A DNA stretch of 64,000 bases from Nitrospira sp. (lineage in GTDB: Bacteria; Nitrospirota; Nitrospiria; Nitrospirales; Nitrospiraceae). Below the pieces are notes generated by a model, which was not told the DNA's origin, did no database searches, and saw only the letters and a program-made list of their open reading frames with translations. Below are positions 41,228 to 52,165 of this stretch, in pieces (the stretch's first letter is position 1; every line of letters begins with the position of its first letter). Location: NCBI GenBank assembly GCA_030123605.1, contig CP126123.1, positions 2,026,001 through 2,090,000 of the forward strand. Direction: 5' to 3'. The position numbers and the translations under genes are program-made.

Positions 41228-42247
41228 TCATTGTATCAGACATTCGGCGATTTGAACGGCATTGAGGGCGGCGCCCTTCCGGAGGTTGTCGCTCACGACC
41301 CAAAGGTTCAAGCCGTTCGTGATCGACTCATCTTCGCGGACCCGCCCGATATAGACTTCATCCTTGCCGGATACGTCGAACGGCATCGGGTACAGTTTCT
41401 TCAGGGGGTCGTCATAGACGATCACGCCCGGCATTTCCGCAAGAGCCGCCCGCGCCTCATTCGCCTTCAACGGCCGTTCGAGTTCGACGTTGATGGCCTC
41501 GGAGTGGCAGCGCAAGACCGGCACTCGCACCGTCGTCGCCGTAACCCGCAGCGAAGGCATCTCGAGAATTTTTCTAGTCTCGCGGACGATCTTGACCTCT
41601 TCCGAACAGTCGCCGCCTTCGCCGAACGATCCGACCTGCGGCAAGAGGTTGAAGGCGATTTGATAGGGATAGACCTGTACCTTCACGTCTTGAAAGGAAA
41701 TCAAGGCCTTCGTCTGATCCACCAATTCATCCATGGCCGCAGCCCCGGTCCCGGACACCGATTGAAAGGTCGTCACGACGACCCGCTTGATTCCGGCGGC
41801 ATCGCGAAGCGGTTTGAGCGCCATGACAAGCGGAGTAGTCGTACAGTTGGGAATCGCCACGATCCCGCGCGTCATGGCCCGCAGAGCAGCAGCGTTGACC
41901 TCCGGCACCACCAACGGCACGTCAGGGTCCATTCGAAAAACCGCGCTGTCGTCGATCACGACGACACCCGCAGCTCCCAATCGCACTCCGTAGTCTCGAC
42001 TGATGGCATCCGTGGCGGACACAAAGGCGATGTCCACACCCGCGAAGGAGGAGGCTTCCGTGAGTTCCTCAACCTTATAGTCCTTCTCCTGACAAGACAA
42101 CACTTCGCCGGCCGACCGCTTCGATGAGAAGAGGCGCAGCTGCTCGATCGGAAATTTTCGCTCTTCCAGAATCTCAAGACTTTCCTTCCCGACGGCCCCG
42201 GTCGCGCCGAGTATCGCGACCGTATAAGCTTGTTTCTTCTTCAGCAT
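41228..42247 (-). CDS. asd: Aspartate-semialdehyde dehydrogenase
   Basis: This 339-residue NADPH-dependent enzyme converts aspartyl phosphate to aspartate semialdehyde for lysine, diaminopimelate, threonine and methionine synthesis. The nucleotide motif VAILGATGAVGKESLEILEE starts the protein. The catalytic Cys is in AIPNCTTTPLVM near residue 134, and the general-base His is in VLRCHSEAINVE. Full length. It lies ten bases downstream of the NHL-repeat gene in the operon. Confidence 0.96.
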   Translation of the reverse strand: MLKKKQAYTVAILGATGAVGKESLEILEERKFPIEQLRLFSSKRSAGEVLSCQEKDYKVEELTEASSFAGVDIAFVSATDAISRDYGVRLGAAGVVVIDDSAVFRMDPDVPLVVPEVNAAALRAMTRGIVAIPNCTTTPLVMALKPLRDAAGIKRVVVTTFQSVSGTGAAAMDELVDQTKALISFQDVKVQVYPYQIAFNLLPQVGSFGEGGDCSEEVKIVRETRKILEMPSLRVTATTVRVPVLRCHSEAINVELERPLKANEARAALAEMPGVIVYDDPLKKLYPMPFDVSGKDEVYIGRVREDESITNGLNLWVVSDNLRKGAALNAVQIAECLIQ

Positions 42248-42257
42248 GATGCTGTCC

Positions 42258-43469
42258 TTACGCGGTGAGGGTCAGAACCCTGATGCGGTGGTTGAACGTA
42301 TCCGCAATATAGACGGTCCCGCTCGCATCGACCGCCACTCCGAATGGATAACTGAGACTTCCCGCCAGGGCATCGCCGCCGTCGCCGCCGAACTGCGCGA
42401 CGCCTGTCCCGGAAAGGCGTGTAATGGTCTTCGATGTCCTCTCCCAGACCCGGATCAAGTGACTGTCCGAATCCGTGATGAACAGATTCCCCTTCGGACC
42501 GACGGCGATTCCTGTAGGCCTGGAAAGACTCTGTGAGTGAGGCTCATCCGGTCCCTGGTAACGGTACGTACCGCCGTCGCCCACTGCCGTCTCGATCCGC
42601 CCTGTTGCCGGATCGACCGCCCGTATCCGGCTGCTGAACGTATCGGCCACATACAACAGGCCGTCTTTTCCTAGAGCTACGCCGCTGGGTCCCGCCAGAC
42701 TGGCTTGATCGGCGGAAATCTGATCCCCGTTGTAGGAAGCCTGGCCGTCTCCGGCCACCGTTGTGATCACCCCGGTGGCCAATTGCACCCTGCGCACGCG
42801 ATTGTTGCTCTGGTCGGCGATATAGAGCGCATCGTCGTTGACGGCCACGCCGGTCGGCTCATTGAGTGCGGCGAGGACCGCGGGACCGCCGTCTCCGGAA
42901 AACCTCGCCTGTCCGGTCCCGGCCAGGGTCGTGATCACACCCGACGCACCATCGACCTTCCTCACGCGATGATGCATCGTATCGGCGATGTACAAATTCC
43001 CCGACCGATCGACCGCCACGGCGCTGGGAAAGTTCAGTTTGGCCTGGCAGGCATAGCCGCCGTCTCCCAACTCACGCTCGACGGCGAGTCGTTCTCCGGT
43101 GACGTAGCGCACGGTCCCGCTGAGATCGGTGACCTGCTTGTAGACATTGGCCTTATCCGCGGATGCGTCGGCAAAGAGATCCTCTTCTCCGTCAGTCGGC
43201 AGGTGCGCCGCTGCTTGCACCGGAGCCGATCCGGTTGCACCGCCAGGACAGATCCCGGCCACAGTCGTGATGACCCCCGTCGCCCGGTCGACGCGGCGCA
43301 CGACGTGATTTTCAGAATCCGCAATGTAGAGGTTCCCCTCTCGATCGAGGCAGAGGCCTTTCGGTTCACACAACGAAGCCGCTTGAGCAGGTCCGCCGTC
43401 TCCGGCATACCTCGGCTCGCCGTTGCCTGCCACGGTCTCAATGATCCCGGTTTTCGCCGCGCTGGTCAT
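42258..43469 (-). CDS. NHL-repeat beta-propeller protein
   Basis: This 403-residue protein is made of about seven NHL repeats. The recurring motif is a short strand such as GNLYIADSENHVVRRVD, followed by GVITTVAG and G..GDGGPA.xA.LxxPxGVAV. I count units near residues 20, 120, 175, 230, 285 and 350. An insert of about 60 residues (about 85-145) separates the first unit from the others. No signal peptide or catalytic domain is visible, so it seems to be a cytoplasmic binding scaffold. It sits between leuB and asd with gaps of six and ten bases, an unusual place for such a protein. Confidence 0.85.
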   Translation of the reverse strand: MTSAAKTGIIETVAGNGEPRYAGDGGPAQAASLCEPKGLCLDREGNLYIADSENHVVRRVDRATGVITTVAGICPGGATGSAPVQAAAHLPTDGEEDLFADASADKANVYKQVTDLSGTVRYVTGERLAVERELGDGGYACQAKLNFPSAVAVDRSGNLYIADTMHHRVRKVDGASGVITTLAGTGQARFSGDGGPAVLAALNEPTGVAVNDDALYIADQSNNRVRRVQLATGVITTVAGDGQASYNGDQISADQASLAGPSGVALGKDGLLYVADTFSSRIRAVDPATGRIETAVGDGGTYRYQGPDEPHSQSLSRPTGIAVGPKGNLFITDSDSHLIRVWERTSKTITRLSGTGVAQFGGDGGDALAGSLSYPFGVAVDASGTVYIADTFNHRIRVLTLTA

Positions 43470-43475
43470 CGTAGC

Positions 43476-44552
43476 TCACGAGGCGAGATTGCGCACAATG
43501 ACATCGCCCATCTCGGTGGTGCCGACCGACTTCATGCCCTCGGCATGAATGTCCTTGGTGCGGAACCCCTGATCGAGGGTCTTGACGATCGCCTGTTCGA
43601 TGGCCTCCGCCTCCTTCTCAAGCCTGAAGGCGTAGGACAACATCATCGCCGCTGAGGCAATGGTCGCGATCGGATTGGCGATGTTTTTCCCCGCGATGTC
43701 CGGGGCGCTGCCGTGGATCGGCTCGAAGAGGCTCACCTTGGCCCCGACACTGGCAGAGGGCAACATGCCGATCGAACCGGTCAGCATCGCCGCCTCATCG
43801 CTGAGGATATCGCCGAAAATGTTATTGCAGAGCAACACGTCGAATTGCCGGGGATTTCGCACCAACTGCATCGCACAGTTATCGACGTAGATATGGCTCA
43901 ACGCCACATCGGCATAGTCCTTCTGAACGTCCGTCACCACCCGCCGCCACAATTCCGAAGACTCCAGCACGTTGGCCTTGTCCACCGAGGTGACCTTCTT
44001 GCGACGTTTGCGGGCCATCTCGAACGCCACCACGGCGATGCGTCGAATTTCGTCGGTCGTATAGACTTCCGTGTTGAACCCGCGCTCTCCGCCGCCGGGC
44101 AACGGTTCGATGCCCTTCGGCTTGCCGAAATAAATGCCGCCGGTCAGCTCGCGGATGACCAGCAGGTCGATCCCCTCGATGACCTCCCTCCGTAACGTGG
44201 AGGCATCGGCAAGAACCGGGTACAGTTTGGCCGGACGCAAATTGGCATAGAGCCCGAGTTGTTCCCGCAAGCCGAGCAACGCCCGTTCTGGACGAAGGCT
44301 GTACTCCAGCCCTTCCCATTTCGGACCACCGACCGCCCCGAGCAACACCGCGTCGCTTTGTTTCGCAATCGACAGGGTTTCCTGCGGCAACGGCACCCCG
44401 ACTTTATCGATGGCATGGCCGCCGACATCACCGGAGACAAATTCAAAATGATGGCCGTACCGCTCGGCCACGGACCTCAAGACCTTGATCGCTTCCGGGA
44501 CGATTTCACGGCCGACTCCGTCGCCGGCCAAGACTGCAATTCTTCCTTTCAC
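43476..44552 (-). CDS. leuB: 3-isopropylmalate dehydrogenase
   Basis: This 358-residue NAD-dependent enzyme oxidises and decarboxylates 3-isopropylmalate in leucine synthesis. The start [20 protein letters not shown], the substrate-binding [32 protein letters not shown], the metal site [20 protein letters not shown] and [20 protein letters not shown] are all present. The start is GTG 44552, nine bases after GGAG. It is downstream of leuA with a small cupin gene between. leuC and leuD are not in the window. Confidence 0.97.
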
Positions 44553-44570: not shown

Positions 44571-44936
44571 CTATTCGACGACCGCTTCGCATTCCGGCGT
44601 CCAGGCGGGATCGACCAGGCAGAGAAACTCAATCGGGTCCTGCCCGTTGTTCAACAGCGACTGCTTGACCCCCGGCGGCACATAAATTACCGAACCGGCC
44701 TCCACCCTCAAGGATTCTTCTTCGACCAGCATCACGCCGCGACCGGCAATGAAGTAATAGACCTCCGATGACTGCAATCGATGCCAGAGAGACTGCCTGC
44801 CTGGGTCCAGAAATCCGTGTGCAAGGCTGTATCCCAATTTGAGGGGCGCCTTTCCTGGATGGAGCAGTTCCCGCAGCCTGGTATGGTCTCCCGCTAAAAA
44901 TTCAGGACAACGCCGAAGATGCGTACTCCACATCAT
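44571..44936 (-). CDS. Single-domain cupin protein
   Basis: This 121-residue soluble protein has a cupin barrel. YSLAHGFLDPGRQSLWHRLQ and SSEVYYFIAGRGVMLVEEES are the first motif, with a His and a Glu as metal ligands. VEAGSVIYVPPGVKQSLLN is the second motif. Small cupins are isomerases, dioxygenases or ligand sensors, and the substrate cannot be assigned. It lies between leuA and leuB in the same direction, 18 bases before leuB. Confidence 0.82.
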   Translation of the reverse strand: MMWSTHLRRCPEFLAGDHTRLRELLHPGKAPLKLGYSLAHGFLDPGRQSLWHRLQSSEVYYFIAGRGVMLVEEESLRVEAGSVIYVPPGVKQSLLNNGQDPIEFLCLVDPAWTPECEAVVE

Positions 44937-45036: not shown

Positions 45037-46584
45037 TCAAATCAAGCTGACCTTCTGAATTCCTTCCGCCTGCTTGACGGCGAAATAGGCCAGCTTATTG
45101 AGGGCGTTCAGATAGGCCCGTGCGGCGGCGGTAATGATATCCGTATCGACTCCATGCCCGGACACAGTCCGCCCGGCTTCTTCAAGCCGCACGGACACCT
45201 CCCCTTGCGCATCAGTACCACCGGTAATGGCGTTGACCCCGAACATCAGCAACGTGCTCTTCGTCTTGGTCATGGCGGCGATCGTCCGGTAGACCGCGTC
45301 GACCGGCCCGTCCCCGGTCCCGCTGTGGGTCACCGGTTGTCCGTCGATCTCCAACTCAACCGTGGCCTTCGGCACCCTATTGGTCCCGCTTTCGACATGA
45401 AACGATTTCAGGACCACCCGCTCCGACATCTTGGCGACTTCTTCGGACACGATCACTTCGATGTCTTCCTCGTAAATTTCCCTCTTCTGGTCCGCCAACC
45501 GTTTGAACCGTTCGAACGCATGGTTGACTTCGTCTTCCGTCAGCTTGTAACCCAACTCCTCCAGCCGCTGACGGAACGCATGGCGCCCGGACAACTTGCC
45601 CATCACCAGCTTGTTCCGCTCAAGCCCGATGGATTCCGGCCGCATGATCTCATAGGTCGTCTTATCCTTCAGCAACCCATCCTGGTGGATCCCGGATGTG
45701 TGGGCAAAGGCATTGGCCCCGACGATGGCCTTGTTCGGTTGGATGACCATACCGGTGATCTTACTCACGAGGCGGCTGGTCTTTGCAATTTCTTCGGTGA
45801 CGACCTTCGTATCGGCCCCATACCAGTCTTTGCGCGTCCGCAAACCCATGACGACTTCTTCCAACGAGGTGTTGCCGGCCCGTTCGCCGATCCCGTTGAT
45901 CGTGCACTCGACCTGCCCGGCCCCCGCCATCACCGCGGAAAGGCTGTTGGCCACGGCCAACCCCAAATCATTGTGGCAATGAACGGAGATCACGGCCTGT
46001 CCGCTGTTCGATACGCTGTCCTTGATCCTCTTGATCAACCCGCCGAACTCCTGAGGGTTGGCATACCCCACCGTGTCGGGAATATTGACCGTCCCGGCGC
46101 CGGCCGCAATGACGGCCTCGATGACTTCACAGAGGTAGGTCGGATCAGCTCGGCTCGCATCCATCGGCGAAAATTCCACATCCTCGACATAGGTGCGGGC
46201 CAGTTGCACCATCTCCACGGCACGCCGCTTCGCTTCGTCCCGTGTCATTCTGAATTGGTACTTGAGGTGGATGTCCGACGCGGAGAGAAAGGTATGGATG
46301 CGGACCTTCGGCGCCCCCTTCAAGGCTTCATGGGCTCGCGCAATGTCTTCCGGTCTCGCCCTGGCGAGACTGCAGACCACCGGTCCCTCGACTTCCTGGG
46401 CGATCCGTCGCACCGCCTCGAAATCACCGGGTGAACTATAGGCAAAGCCGGCTTCGATGACATCCACGCCGAGGCGCGCCAACTGCTTGGCGATCATGAG
46501 CTTCTCTTCGACGTTCATGCTCGCTCCAGGCGATTGTTCGCCGTCCCGCAACGTCGTATCGAATATCCTGATCATCCTGGTCAT
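45037..46584 (-). CDS. leuA: 2-isopropylmalate synthase
   Basis: This 515-residue enzyme condenses acetyl-CoA with 2-ketoisovalerate, the first step of leucine synthesis. The N-terminal TIM barrel opens IRIFDTTLRDGEQSPGASMN with the metal Asp. Other marks are VEFSPMDASRADPTYL, VISVHCHNDLGLAVANSLSA (HxH metal ligands) and INGIGERAGNTSLEEVVM. The C-terminal LeuA dimer domain that senses leucine is present (about residues 390-510). The start is ATG 46584, six bases after GAGGAGGT. A longer frame to 46704 is not supported. A T-box leader precedes the gene. Confidence 0.97.
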   Translation of the reverse strand: MTRMIRIFDTTLRDGEQSPGASMNVEEKLMIAKQLARLGVDVIEAGFAYSSPGDFEAVRRIAQEVEGPVVCSLARARPEDIARAHEALKGAPKVRIHTFLSASDIHLKYQFRMTRDEAKRRAVEMVQLARTYVEDVEFSPMDASRADPTYLCEVIEAVIAAGAGTVNIPDTVGYANPQEFGGLIKRIKDSVSNSGQAVISVHCHNDLGLAVANSLSAVMAGAGQVECTINGIGERAGNTSLEEVVMGLRTRKDWYGADTKVVTEEIAKTSRLVSKITGMVIQPNKAIVGANAFAHTSGIHQDGLLKDKTTYEIMRPESIGLERNKLVMGKLSGRHAFRQRLEELGYKLTEDEVNHAFERFKRLADQKREIYEEDIEVIVSEEVAKMSERVVLKSFHVESGTNRVPKATVELEIDGQPVTHSGTGDGPVDAVYRTIAAMTKTKSTLLMFGVNAITGGTDAQGEVSVRLEEAGRTVSGHGVDTDIITAAARAYLNALNKLAYFAVKQAEGIQKVSLI

Positions 46585-46610
46585 GGCGCACCTCCTCTGT
46601 TCCGCAGGTT

Positions 46611-46724
46611 GCTCAAACAGGTTTTCCAACGCGGCCGCAGGCGGAGAGAACACCGGAGACGTACCCTCTGGGGTACGTTGAGGATGTTTTCGAGCCGAGA
46701 ACAAAGTTGGAGACCTGTTTCAGC
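46611..46724 (-). repeat. Large imperfect stem-loop between T-box and leuA
   Basis: Arms 46611-46630 (GCTCAAACAGGTTTTCCAAC) and 46706-46724 are complementary over about 19 bases with two or three mismatches. Inside is an 8-base perfect hairpin, ACGTACCC/GGGTACGT, at 46659-46678. It looks like an intergenic REP- or MITE-type unit inserted in the leader. I did not find a second copy in this window. Confidence 0.55.
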
Positions 46725-46734
46725 ATCCTGCCAA

Positions 46735-46770
46735 TAAAAAAGCCTCCGCCCCGAGACAGGGACGAAGGCC
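46735..46770 (-). terminator. Regulated terminator of the leuA T-box
   Basis: AGGCCTTCGTCCC and GGGGCGGAGGCTT form an imperfect GC-rich stem followed by TTTTTTATT. Its 5' strand lies next to the T-box motif, as expected for a mutually exclusive antiterminator. Confidence 0.75.
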
Positions 46771-46990
46771 TTTCGGAACTTCGTGGTACCACCCTGATTC
46801 AGCAGTAGATGAGGATGATTCCCCATCCCACCGCCCTTAATTCGATCCGTGACGTGGATGACTCGGGACTCACTACCACCGTAGAGGCTTCACGAGTCCG
46901 GCTCAGAGGCGAGTTCGGCAAATGACCGGCTGGCTTGCACCACCCACCAGCTCTCTCGGTTCGGTCGGTTCCGCCTACTACTCCTCATCA
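46735..46990 (-). promoter_or_regulatory. Leucine T-box riboswitch before leuA
   Basis: The minus strand has the T-box motif AGGGTGGTACCACG at 46795-46782, which pairs with the tRNA acceptor end. A typical Stem I start (GAGGAGTAGTAGG) lies just after the pssA stop, and an AGAGAGCTGG...GGTGCAAGCCAGC distal part follows. A specifier stretch GAACTCGCC puts the Leu codon CTC at 46913-46911, followed by a purine. The leader ends in a GC-rich hairpin and six T residues at 46740-46735. Uncharged tRNA-Leu should stabilise the antiterminator and switch on leuA and genes behind it. Confidence 0.88.
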
Positions 46991-46999
46991 CAGCCATTC

Positions 47000-47800
47000 C
47001 TATTCTCTCGAATCCAACACCGGCACATCAGTCTTCGCAGCCTGCTTCCCTGCGCCTTTGGCCACCATCGTCCAGAGCCGTGCAATCGGACCGGACAGGG
47101 CATAGCCGGCAAAGATGACGAATACCATAACCTGTGGCCAGGCCGCAATCAACATCAGGGCGAGAATGCCCCACACCAGATAAGTAAAGTGATCGCCTCG
47201 CCGGAACTTCAGGTCCTTGAAACTGCGGTACTTGATCGTGCTCACCATGAGAAACGCCAGGGCAAACGTGATCACTAAGATCGGCAGTGGCTTCACTTCG
47301 GCACCCATCTGGGTGAAGTGGAGATCGAAGATCACCAACGAGGCGATGACGCCGGCGGCCGCCGGAATGGCCAGCCCCGTGAAGTATTTGCTGTCGGACG
47401 TGCTCACCGTGGCGTTGAACCGCGCCAACCGGACCGCCCCCATCGCGACATAGGCAAACATGACCGCCACCCCGAACATCCCCTGCCCGCTCAAGGCATA
47501 GGAATAAATGAGAACGCCCGGCGCGACACCAAACGATACGACATCAGACAGGGAATCGTATTCGATACCGAACTGGCCGGTGCTGTTCGTCAACCGAGCC
47601 AACTTGCCGTCCAGCATATCGAAGATCATCCCGACCAGGATCGCGATGGCCGCGGTCAGATGGTGACCGTTGAACACCGACAAAATGGCAAAGACGCCGC
47701 AAAACAAATTCCCTGTCGTGCACAGATTAGGAATCAAGTACATGGCCTGTCGTTTTCGATTACCCTTGGCAAACGGAGCCCGCATGGCCGGTGATTTCAT
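47000..47800 (-). CDS. pssA: CDP-diacylglycerol-serine O-phosphatidyltransferase
   Basis: This 266-residue inner-membrane enzyme makes phosphatidylserine. The CDP-alcohol phosphotransferase motif is GMIFDMLDGKLARLTNSTGQ continuing to IEYDSLSDVVSFG, with the DG..AR....G..D...D pattern. About seven hydrophobic helices are present, and the soluble N-terminus has the basic FAKGNRKRQAMYLIPNLCTT. Its start overlaps the psd stop by four bases. It works directly before phosphatidylserine decarboxylase to yield phosphatidylethanolamine. Confidence 0.95.
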   Translation of the reverse strand: MKSPAMRAPFAKGNRKRQAMYLIPNLCTTGNLFCGVFAILSVFNGHHLTAAIAILVGMIFDMLDGKLARLTNSTGQFGIEYDSLSDVVSFGVAPGVLIYSYALSGQGMFGVAVMFAYVAMGAVRLARFNATVSTSDSKYFTGLAIPAAAGVIASLVIFDLHFTQMGAEVKPLPILVITFALAFLMVSTIKYRSFKDLKFRRGDHFTYLVWGILALMLIAAWPQVMVFVIFAGYALSGPIARLWTMVAKGAGKQAAKTDVPVLDSRE

Positions 47801-48447
47801 CGGAGTTCCCCCACGATGGTTTCTCCCCCCTTGACCCGATCACCCACCGCAACGCAAATCTTGGAACCAAGCGGCACAAAGGTATCCATCCGTGATCCGA
47901 ACCTGATCAATCCGTATCGCTCACCCCGCTGCACCAGGTCCCCCTGTCCCACCCAACAGACGATCCGGCGGGCGATCAATCCCGCAACCTGTACACAGAG
48001 CACTTTCGCTCCTGAGGCCGTCTGCAACATGACGGCATTTTGTTCATTGTGGAGCGTCGCCTCCGGCTTGCTGGCCACGAGAAACTGGCCCGGTTGATAA
48101 CTGATGCCTTCCACCGTCCCGTCACAGGGCATTCGATTCACATGTACATCGAACACGTTCAAGAAGATCGTGACCCTGATGCTCTTCTCCTTCAGGTAAC
48201 GCGGCTCGAACTCTTCTTCGATGGCGATCACTTTGCCATCGCCCGGCGACACCACCACGTTGGGCTGCTGGGGGACGGTCCGGCTGGGGTTCCGGAAGAA
48301 CCAAGCGGTGAAGAGCGTGAACCCTCCCGCCAGCGCCGTCGGAATGGTCCAGCCGACCAGGCCGAAAAACAACGCCGCGCCTCCCAGACCACCGACGAAC
48401 GGCCACCCTTCCTTTACGATCGGTATTCCAGCGGCTCGATCAGCCAT
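47797..48447 (-). CDS. psd: Phosphatidylserine decarboxylase (short type)
   Basis: This proenzyme of about 216 residues is membrane-associated through helices at about residues 15-45. Motifs are VVSPGDGKVIAIEEEFE, IFLNVFDVHVNRMPCDG (catalytic His region) and RFGSRMDTFVP. In the last, self-cleavage between Gly and Ser would create the pyruvoyl group. This is the short archaeal-type family, with GS in place of LGST. The start is ATG 48447 (MADRAAG); an upstream ATG at 48468 is possible. It is followed at once by pssA, giving a two-step phosphatidylethanolamine path. Confidence 0.93.
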   Translation of the reverse strand: MADRAAGIPIVKEGWPFVGGLGGAALFFGLVGWTIPTALAGGFTLFTAWFFRNPSRTVPQQPNVVVSPGDGKVIAIEEEFEPRYLKEKSIRVTIFLNVFDVHVNRMPCDGTVEGISYQPGQFLVASKPEATLHNEQNAVMLQTASGAKVLCVQVAGLIARRIVCWVGQGDLVQRGERYGLIRFGSRMDTFVPLGSKICVAVGDRVKGGETIVGELR

Positions 48448-48497
48448 AGACCTCCAGGCCCTCTTCAAATGGTACCATGCAGAGCCCGGTTGAAGGG

Positions 48498-49514
<1,017 letters not shown>

Positions 49515-49575: not shown

Positions 49576-50094
49576 TTATTCTCGCGCGACTTTCTTGGGT
49601 TGGCTGACGGCCGGCCTGATCGCTTCTCGCGCAATCGCCACCCGCCCGGTTCGAATCAGTTCCTTGATGCCGAGCGGCTGCAACAAATTGATGATGGCCT
49701 CGATCTTCTTCGGGTCGCCCGTTACTTCGATGGTATAGGTCGAGGGCGTCGAATCGACGACGTTCGCTCGAAAAATATCCGCGATCCGGAGGGCCTCAGC
49801 CCGATCTTCCGCCTTGGTGTGGACCTTGATCAAGGCCGTCTCCCGCGAGACGAACTCGCTCTCATTGAGATCCACAACCTTGATGACATCGATCAGTTTG
49901 TTCAATTGCTTGACGATTTGCTCCACGATCCGGTCATCGCCTGAGGTCACGATGGTCATCTGTGACATCGAGGGATCGAGTGTCGGCGCGACGGACAGGC
50001 TTTCGATGTTGAAGCCGCGACCGCTGAACAACCCGGCCACGCGAGACAACACGCCGAACTTATTTTCTACGGTGACTGCAATGATGTGTTCCAT
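49576..50094 (-). CDS. ilvH: Acetolactate synthase small subunit
   Basis: This 172-residue regulatory subunit has an N-terminal ACT domain (HIIAVTVENKFGVLSRVAGL followed by FSGRGFNIESLSVAPT), which binds valine for feedback inhibition. The C-terminal ALS_ss_C domain (SEFVSRETALIKVHTKAEDR) activates the large subunit. It starts 41 bases after ilvB and ends 64 bases before ilvC. Confidence 0.97.
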   Translation of the reverse strand: MEHIIAVTVENKFGVLSRVAGLFSGRGFNIESLSVAPTLDPSMSQMTIVTSGDDRIVEQIVKQLNKLIDVIKVVDLNESEFVSRETALIKVHTKAEDRAEALRIADIFRANVVDSTPSTYTIEVTGDPKKIEAIINLLQPLGIKELIRTGRVAIAREAIRPAVSQPKKVARE

Positions 50095-50135: not shown

Positions 50136-51914
50136 TTATGCTGTTAAGATCGTATCCTTATCTTCAGTCGATCCGGTGCCGGGCACGCCGGACTGCTTCT
50201 TCTTCAGTTCCGGCGGATCTTCAAGAATCATCTCGTGATTGCATCCGCCGGCCGGAATCATCGGGTAACAATTCTCGTAAGGATAGGTCGGCACGTCCAC
50301 GACAACCGGTTTGTCGGTTTCGATCGCCGCCTTCAACACCGCGTCCAACTCCCCGACATTGTTCGCACGCAACCCGACGGCCCCGTAAGCCTCGGCCAAC
50401 TTCACGAAATCCGGCGTCGTGTCGAGATAGCTGGACGCATAGCGGCCTTCATAGAACAGATCCTGCCACTGGCGAACCATGCCGTGGAAGCGATTGTTCA
50501 AGATGATGACCTTCACCGGCAACTTCGACACAACGGCGGTGGCCATCTCCTGCATATTCATCTGCACGCTGCCGTCGCCGGCGACGCAGAGCACCAGCCG
50601 GTTCCTGAACGCAGCCTGCGCCCCCATGGCGGCCGGGAATCCGAACCCCATCGTGCCCAGGCCGCCCGAGGTCAACCAACGGTTCGGTTTGGCAAGTTTG
50701 AAATACTGGGCCGTCCACATCTGATGTTGGCCCACGTCCGTCGAGACGATCGGGTCCCGGTCCTTCGTGAGTTCATACAGGCGCTTGATGACATGTTGCG
50801 GCTTGATCGCCCCTTCAGGCTCCTGCTGATAGGCCAACGGATGCGCCTGCTGCCATTCGCGGATTTGATCCCACCAGGGCTTGCGGAGTTCTCGCTGATC
50901 CCCGTTGACGGTGGCCTTGAGGATCTGAATCAACTCCCGCAAGACGGCCTTGCAGTCGCCCACGATCGGGATATCCACATGCACGTTCTTGCGGATCGAC
51001 GTCGGGTCGATATCAATATGAATCACCTTGGCGTAAGGGCAGAATTCCGAGACCTTGCCTGTCACACGGTCGTCGAATCGCGCCCCGACGGCAATCACCA
51101 AGTCGGAGTAATGGACCGCCATGTTGGCACAATAGGTGCCGTGCATCCCCAACATGCCCATCGACTGGGGATGTTCGCCCGGAAACGCGCCGAGCCCCAT
51201 CAAGGTCATGTCTACGGGAATCTGAGTCATCTCGGCCAATTCGAGTAATTCTTTGGAGGCTCCTGAAAACACGACGCCCCCGCCGACGTACAAAATCGGC
51301 TTCTTCGCCTTCATGATGGCTTCGGCGGCCTGCTTGATCTGCCACTTGTTGCCCTCATAGGTCGGATTGTAACCGCGAATCGCCACGGAACTCGGATAGG
51401 TAAACTCGGTCTTGGCCATGGACACATCTTTGGGAATGTCCACGAGCACCGGACCGGGTCGTCCCGTCGTGGCGATGTAGAAGGCTTCCTTGATGGTCGT
51501 GGCCAGGTCGTTGACGTCTTTCACGAGAAAATTGTATTTCGTGCAGGGCCGGCTCAATCCGATATTGTCGGCTTCCTGAAAGGCATCGTTGCCGATCAAA
51601 CTCGTCGGCACCTGGCCGCTGAAACAGACCAGTGGCACCGAATCCATATAGGCATCGGCCAGAGCGGTAATGACGTTGGTCATGCCAGGCCCGGACGTCA
51701 CCAAACAAACACCGGCCTTTCCGGTGGCCTTGGCGTAGCCCTCGGCCATATGGCCCGCGCCCTGTTCATGGCGGGTCAGAATGACTTCGAGATCCTTTTG
51801 TTGATGGAGCATATCGAAGATCTTCAGCACGACGCCGCCCGGCAGCGCGAAAATCGTCTTCACGCCCTCACGTTTCAGGCATTCGATAAAAATTTCCGAC
51901 CCTGTGAGCTTCAT
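50136..51914 (-). CDS. ilvB: Acetolactate synthase large subunit
   Basis: This 592-residue thiamine-diphosphate enzyme condenses pyruvate to acetolactate. The N-terminal part KREGVKTIFALPGGVVLKIF and the catalytic Glu region ILTRHEQGAGHMAEGYAKAT are followed by VTSGPGMTNVITALADAYMD. The C-terminal ThDP motif is GDGSVQMNMQEMATAV ending near NNRFHGMVRQW. The start is ATG 51914 behind GGGAGGGTG. It is the first gene of the long minus-strand operon. The 240 bases upstream contain no T-box or other leader I can identify. Confidence 0.98.
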   Translation of the reverse strand: MKLTGSEIFIECLKREGVKTIFALPGGVVLKIFDMLHQQKDLEVILTRHEQGAGHMAEGYAKATGKAGVCLVTSGPGMTNVITALADAYMDSVPLVCFSGQVPTSLIGNDAFQEADNIGLSRPCTKYNFLVKDVNDLATTIKEAFYIATTGRPGPVLVDIPKDVSMAKTEFTYPSSVAIRGYNPTYEGNKWQIKQAAEAIMKAKKPILYVGGGVVFSGASKELLELAEMTQIPVDMTLMGLGAFPGEHPQSMGMLGMHGTYCANMAVHYSDLVIAVGARFDDRVTGKVSEFCPYAKVIHIDIDPTSIRKNVHVDIPIVGDCKAVLRELIQILKATVNGDQRELRKPWWDQIREWQQAHPLAYQQEPEGAIKPQHVIKRLYELTKDRDPIVSTDVGQHQMWTAQYFKLAKPNRWLTSGGLGTMGFGFPAAMGAQAAFRNRLVLCVAGDGSVQMNMQEMATAVVSKLPVKVIILNNRFHGMVRQWQDLFYEGRYASSYLDTTPDFVKLAEAYGAVGLRANNVGELDAVLKAAIETDKPVVVDVPTYPYENCYPMIPAGGCNHEMILEDPPELKKKQSGVPGTGSTEDKDTILTA

Positions 51915-52165
51915 ATCACCCTCCCCTTCGCAGACGACGGCGAAGGACGCTAGGCCTCGATCGAGAACAAACCCTCTCCCTGCACCGCATGCGTGGCACA
52001 GGTTGATACATTCTTATTGAAAAAACAATGGGTAAGATGGCGGATGGTATCACCAGCCTTCAAAGAAGGTCAAGAGAGTGAAGGTCCTGCTTCCACCAGG
52101 AGACGTTGGTGCGCACTCACGGTCTGTGATATAGGAACCCTGCCGACCCATCGATTGTGCAGCCC

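Follow-up and report, generated by a model that had tools for sequence, protein, structure and literature searches.

A leucine T-box between pssA and leuA of Nitrospira as a probable internal gate of one operon

Introduction

A T-box is usually portrayed as a leader, placed where a transcript begins. In a 64,000-nucleotide stretch of the Nitrospira sp. genome (assembly GCA_030123605.1, contig CP126123.1, positions 2,026,001 to 2,090,000), here called the window, a preliminary description made from the sequence alone had placed a leucine T-box in the middle of a long operon, where almost no room is left for a promoter. This raises the question whether the element starts a transcript of its own or controls the transcription that arrives from the genes upstream. 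If it is an internal gate, the shared ilv and phospholipid enzymes would always be made and only the leucine branch would be switched, all from one promoter.

Results

The element between pssA and leuA is a leucine T-box

The element was matched to the T-box family by cmscan with an E-value of 6.5e-20, model positions 1-219 being complete, and the score of 96.4 bits exceeded the gathering score of 93. A T-box search of the whole 4.32 Mb genome found the one between pssA and leuA as the sole T-box. With the terminator and the U run it spans about 47000-46735 on the minus strand; the location proposed earlier was correct, and the extent of 46735-46990 given with it had to be enlarged. The T-box motif, the start of Stem I, the AG-type distal loop, the CTC specifier and the terminator that had been noticed by eye were all located (Table 1).

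Table 1. Features of the ilv-leu locus in the window, in the order of transcription
Feature	Position	Strand	Basis or remark
Putative cluster promoter TTGACC-18-TACCAT	52044..52073	-	about 130 bases before ilvB; like site in f1 relatives
ilvB	50136-51914	-	ORF and synteny
ilvN	49576-50094	-	ORF and synteny
ilvC	48498-49511	-	ORF and synteny
psd	47797-48468	-	after ilvC; ORF and synteny
pssA (phosphatidylserine synthase-like)	47000..47800	-	stop TAG 47002-47000; ORF and synteny
Weak promoter-like site TTGATT-17-TATGGT	47124..47152	-	inside pssA; matrix score 10.7
T-box leader RF00230	46755..47000	-	Rfam cmscan, 96.4 bits
Stem I	46901..46995	-	GGC directly 3' of pssA stop through to GAGC
Specifier codon CUC (Leu)	46911..46913	-	within GAACUC
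Stem III	46802..46834	-	family pair conservation and fold
Antiterminator	46758..46795	-	includes T-box sequence AGGGUGGUACCACG at 46795-46782
Intrinsic terminator	46742..46769	-	11 pairs, -20.6 kcal/mol, then TTTTTT
Interspersed repeat copy	46600..46735	-	between T-box terminator and leuA
leuA (2-isopropylmalate synthase)	45037..46584	-	ATG 46584; Shine-Dalgarno-like GGAGG at 46595
Small cupin gene	44571-44936	-	between leuA and leuB
leuB	43476..44552	-	downstream of leuA and cupin gene; ORF and synteny
NHL-repeat gene	42258-43469	-	between leuB and asd
asd	41228..42247	-	after NHL-repeat gene; ORF and synteny

Stem I begins 4 bases past the pssA stop codon, just as the leader had been described, and contains an AGAGAG element (46957-46947) and a GGUG distal loop. 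The base 3' of the specifier is a G, where the pattern quoted in PMC5794164 has an A. In the antiterminator, the bulge UGGU is the complement of the ACCA end of a tRNA. Since the single arm CUUCGUCCC is common to the terminator and the antiterminator, the two structures are mutually exclusive.

The tRNA genes were identified with RF00005 and ARAGORN. The same genome encodes a tRNA-Leu(GAG) with the discriminator A, and its ACCA end therefore fits the UGGU bulge. The covariance match, the CUC specifier and this tRNA bore out the assignment as a leucine T-box. With a full-length match above the cut-off, the T-box sequence and UGGU, the Stem I parts and specifier, a terminator and antiterminator that share an arm, and a cognate tRNA with fitting anticodon and discriminator, the element is a member of the known T-box family. 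In the leucine T-boxes of three genomes (G032, G034 and G051; loci L053, L054 and L036) the specifier CTG replaces CTC, which points to tRNA-Leu(CAG).

The T-box and its place in the operon are conserved in the Nitrospira-like family

The T-box was found in 56 of the 61 genomes of the Nitrospira-like family f1, and the 5 genomes without a match are all at most 89% complete. The sister families f2, f3 and f4 (39 genomes) had none. It was also present in some genomes of the families f6, f9, f14, f15 and f18, and in 8 of 13 genomes reached via a Geobacter-type 16S pattern. Base pairing was counted over 54 aligned f1 sequences, the three CTG-specifier genomes being left out. The pairs of Stem I, Stem II, the antiterminator and the terminator were kept in 93 to 100% of the cells (antiterminator 485 of 486, terminator 98%), and compensatory changes were found in Stem I and Stem II. 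Pairing of Stem III was kept in just 70% of the cells, in a region that is poorly aligned.

Some T-boxes had an unusual architecture. In those of family f9 (L141, L142), Stem I is very short and its distal part with the AG-bulge and loop is missing, yet the specifier, antiterminator and terminator are retained; those of family f15 (L143, L144) lack most of the Stem II/III region between specifier and antiterminator. A second T-box of the isoleucine type (specifier ATC) was observed in genome G045 on contig C132 (L066), apparently before the start of ileS. A promoter-like site is present there; the contig carries no ilv-leu genes and is possibly a foreign contig in the assembly.

The gene order ilvB-ilvN-ilvC-psd-pssA-T-box-leuA is nearly always kept in the f1 loci with enough flanking sequence, and in most of them leuA is followed by the cupin gene, leuB, the NHL gene and asd. 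In the window, pssA and psd overlap by 4 bases, and in f1 mostly 6-23 bases separate the pssA stop from the Stem I core. An exception is the f1 genome G054, where the 372 bases upstream of the T-box on the contig contain no pssA. The terminator is followed after about 150 bases by the start of leuA. With this copy counted, the genome has 20 matches to the interspersed repeat in the interval, at 68 to 100% identity.

The stretch before the f1 T-box scores like coding DNA

To look for a T-box promoter, a sigma-70-type matrix was run over the positions 14-40 bases upstream of the Stem I core. The matrix, of the E. coli type, was set up from general knowledge and would miss promoters that other sigma factors recognise. 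In f1 the median best score was 2.3 (n=57 loci), the same as the median of 2.3 in the control of 1,620 random f1 coding windows. The only f1 locus to score above 10 was G054 (TTGACT-17-TATCGT, 11.8, at the usual distance); this T-box away from pssA with a promoter present was counted for a gate in the other loci. A consensus promoter scan reported one site, inside leuA, and none before the T-box. A promoter between the terminator and leuA, which would bypass the T-box, was rejected, the best matrix score being 4.7.

The same position gave high scores elsewhere. All 8 loci of the Geobacter-type genomes scored at least 11.3 (median 12.6), both f9 loci 14.4 and 4 of the 5 f15 loci 14.2. In f15 and f9, two other families of the phylum to which f1 belongs, the promoter lies within the end of pssA or straddles it. 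At the head of the f1 cluster, the ilvB promoter TTGAC-N17/18-TA..AT was found with scores of 10.0-11.7 in the f1 loci tested, which indicates that the matrix functions in this family. In three f15 loci (L135, L143, L144) the best scores before ilvB were 5.9-6.2 and no good promoter was seen, in a family whose T-box has a strong promoter; f1 shows the reverse.

Because f1 lacks a recognisable promoter where the Geobacter-type, f9 and f15 loci have a strong one, and because the ilvB promoter is detectable, the earlier idea of an internal gate gains support. Judged from the sequences compared, the T-box is apparently promoterless and probably gates transcription from the upstream genes rather than starting a new transcript.

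A promoter-like site inside pssA and the alternative readings

According to the preliminary description, a promoter between pssA and leuA would make the T-box a stand-alone leader. None was seen at the usual position, and a weak site was found further upstream, inside pssA (Table 1), at a distance of 143 bases from the Stem I core. A like site is present in 14 of the 24 loci of the same genus (this genome included) and also turns up in two further f1 genera. The terminal 300 bases of pssA contain a site of at least 9.5 in 32% of the f1 loci vs 6% of the control windows. This excess is above the chance expectation and is mostly due to the site at 47152-47124. It counts against a pure gate, as does the somewhat low synonymous variation of the last 8 pssA codons (3rd percentile). 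For the site at 47152-47124, codon constraint may be the explanation, and a weak promoter may be as well.

If the site is a hidden promoter, the T-box would be a stand-alone leader on a transcript that begins with about 120 bases of pssA. The score of 10.7 falls within the range of the ilvB promoters, the site recurs in more than half of the same-genus loci, and T-box promoters do lie in or across the pssA end in f15 and f9. However, it has only 8 of the 12 consensus bases, went unreported in the consensus scan, and is absent from 10 of the 24 loci of the genus as well as from nearly every other f1 genus. It also falls within the protein-conserved motif LIxAWPQxM, so codon constraint may account for it, and we consider a stand-alone leader unlikely. 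In a mixed supply, read-through from ilvB or a weak internal promoter would dominate depending on the condition, and the T-box would gate both. Long operons often contain internal promoters and the pssA site could be one; this reading is likewise considered unlikely. A decayed T-box without function could be suspected from a match that is barely above the gathering score. It was rejected as extremely improbable on the grounds of its conservation in f1 and the compensatory changes, and the T-box sequence, specifier, terminator and antiterminator are all intact.

An internal gate of one operon, formed by a leucine-specific, transcription-terminating T-box, is thus the best-supported reading and in our judgement a probable one; given the excess of pssA sites and its two possible causes, the main rival is a hidden promoter that acts by itself or together with read-through.

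The same junction in the sister families

In family f2, where no T-box was matched, only 0-82 bases separate pssA from leuA, an arrangement in favour of co-transcription across the junction. In many genomes of family f3, the gap between pssA and leuA measures 167 to 381 bases and contains a terminator ahead of leuA. A short ORF with a run of three Leu codons was found in 11 of 19 such gaps (L159, L162, L163, L165, L178, L185, L186, L191, L192, L194, L196), compared to 0 to 3% of the trials with shuffled gaps. The ORF often follows directly after the pssA stop and is itself followed by the terminator. As the 11 cases come from three genera only, g24 (eight genomes), g28 and g30, they are not independent. 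When examples of g24 and g30 were folded, the stretch past the ORF could pair with a part of the terminator to give an alternative hairpin. No promoter stands out at the f3 junction in the matrix scan. A leucine leader-peptide attenuator is thus the candidate for f3 at the junction that holds the T-box in f1.

We give about an even chance to the wider reading that the pssA-leuA junction is an intra-operon leucine checkpoint whose sensor was exchanged in evolution, with a promoterless T-box in f1, a Leu leader peptide in f3, nothing in f2, and a T-box with its own promoter in distant relatives.

Discussion

From the features described above we infer tRNA binding, termination, read-through and the source of the transcript. 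Transcription would start before ilvB and pass through ilvB-ilvN-ilvC-psd-pssA, and the RNA would fold into the T-box after the pssA stop. When tRNA-Leu(GAG) is charged, the 11-pair terminator would form and the transcripts would end, so that the upstream genes are made and leuA, leuB and perhaps asd are not. An uncharged tRNA-Leu(GAG) would instead pair at two places, through its anticodon at the CUC specifier and through its free ACCA end at the UGGU bulge. This would let the antiterminator form, and the RNA polymerase would continue into leuA. This logic fits the gene roles: ilvBNC are needed for every branched-chain amino acid, psd and pssA for phospholipids, whereas leuA and leuB act in the leucine branch only. 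It leaves asd at the end of the operon unaccounted for.

No relevant open-access paper on T-boxes in Nitrospira was found, and an earlier mention in subscription papers or T-box databases is possible. What appears to be new is the family-wide position inside an operon without a recognisable promoter, together with the apparent exchange of the sensor at the same junction. A single junction offers a natural series: a T-box with promoter, one apparently without, a predicted leader peptide, and a junction that has no regulator. How internal gates arose and how amino-acid sensors were exchanged can therefore be tested in cultured Nitrospira and Geobacter.

Leucine T-boxes before leuA were reported in 2008 for Geobacter and Pelobacter (PMC2494555), and the Geobacter leuA T-box was tied to tRNA-Leu(GAG) in 2009 (PMC2700814). 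The use of a T-box in a diderm, which the preliminary description had called notable, is therefore less so than claimed; the apparently promoterless intra-operon form is the new part. The element resembles the leuA T-box of Geobacter sulfurreducens, G. metallireducens and Pelobacter, likewise a leucine T-box before leuA, for which the published annotation names tRNA-Leu(GAG) (PMC2494555, PMC2700814). In 4 of the 8 Geobacter-type loci examined, psd and pssA are likewise found upstream. Unlike in f1, a strong promoter is seen in all 8 at about 26-38 bases from the Stem I core, and 3 of the 8 have no pssA within 1.2 kb upstream.

In Bacillus subtilis, the ilv-leu T-box heads the operon and controls the ilv and leu parts jointly, whereas the Nitrospira T-box lies in the middle of the operon and is proposed to gate leuA onward only. 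The B. subtilis element, too, is a tRNA-Leu T-box over leu genes, in an operon that combines ilv and leu (PMC12452182). The leader-peptide attenuators of E. coli (leuL) and of the S. aureus ilv-leu operon (PMC5794164) share with the T-box that leucine shortage leads to antitermination. In contrast to the T-box, they sense it by the stalling of the ribosome at Leu codons and do not bind the tRNA directly. The f3 candidate, predicted from its sequence, resembles the attenuator of S. aureus ilv-leu (PMC5794164).
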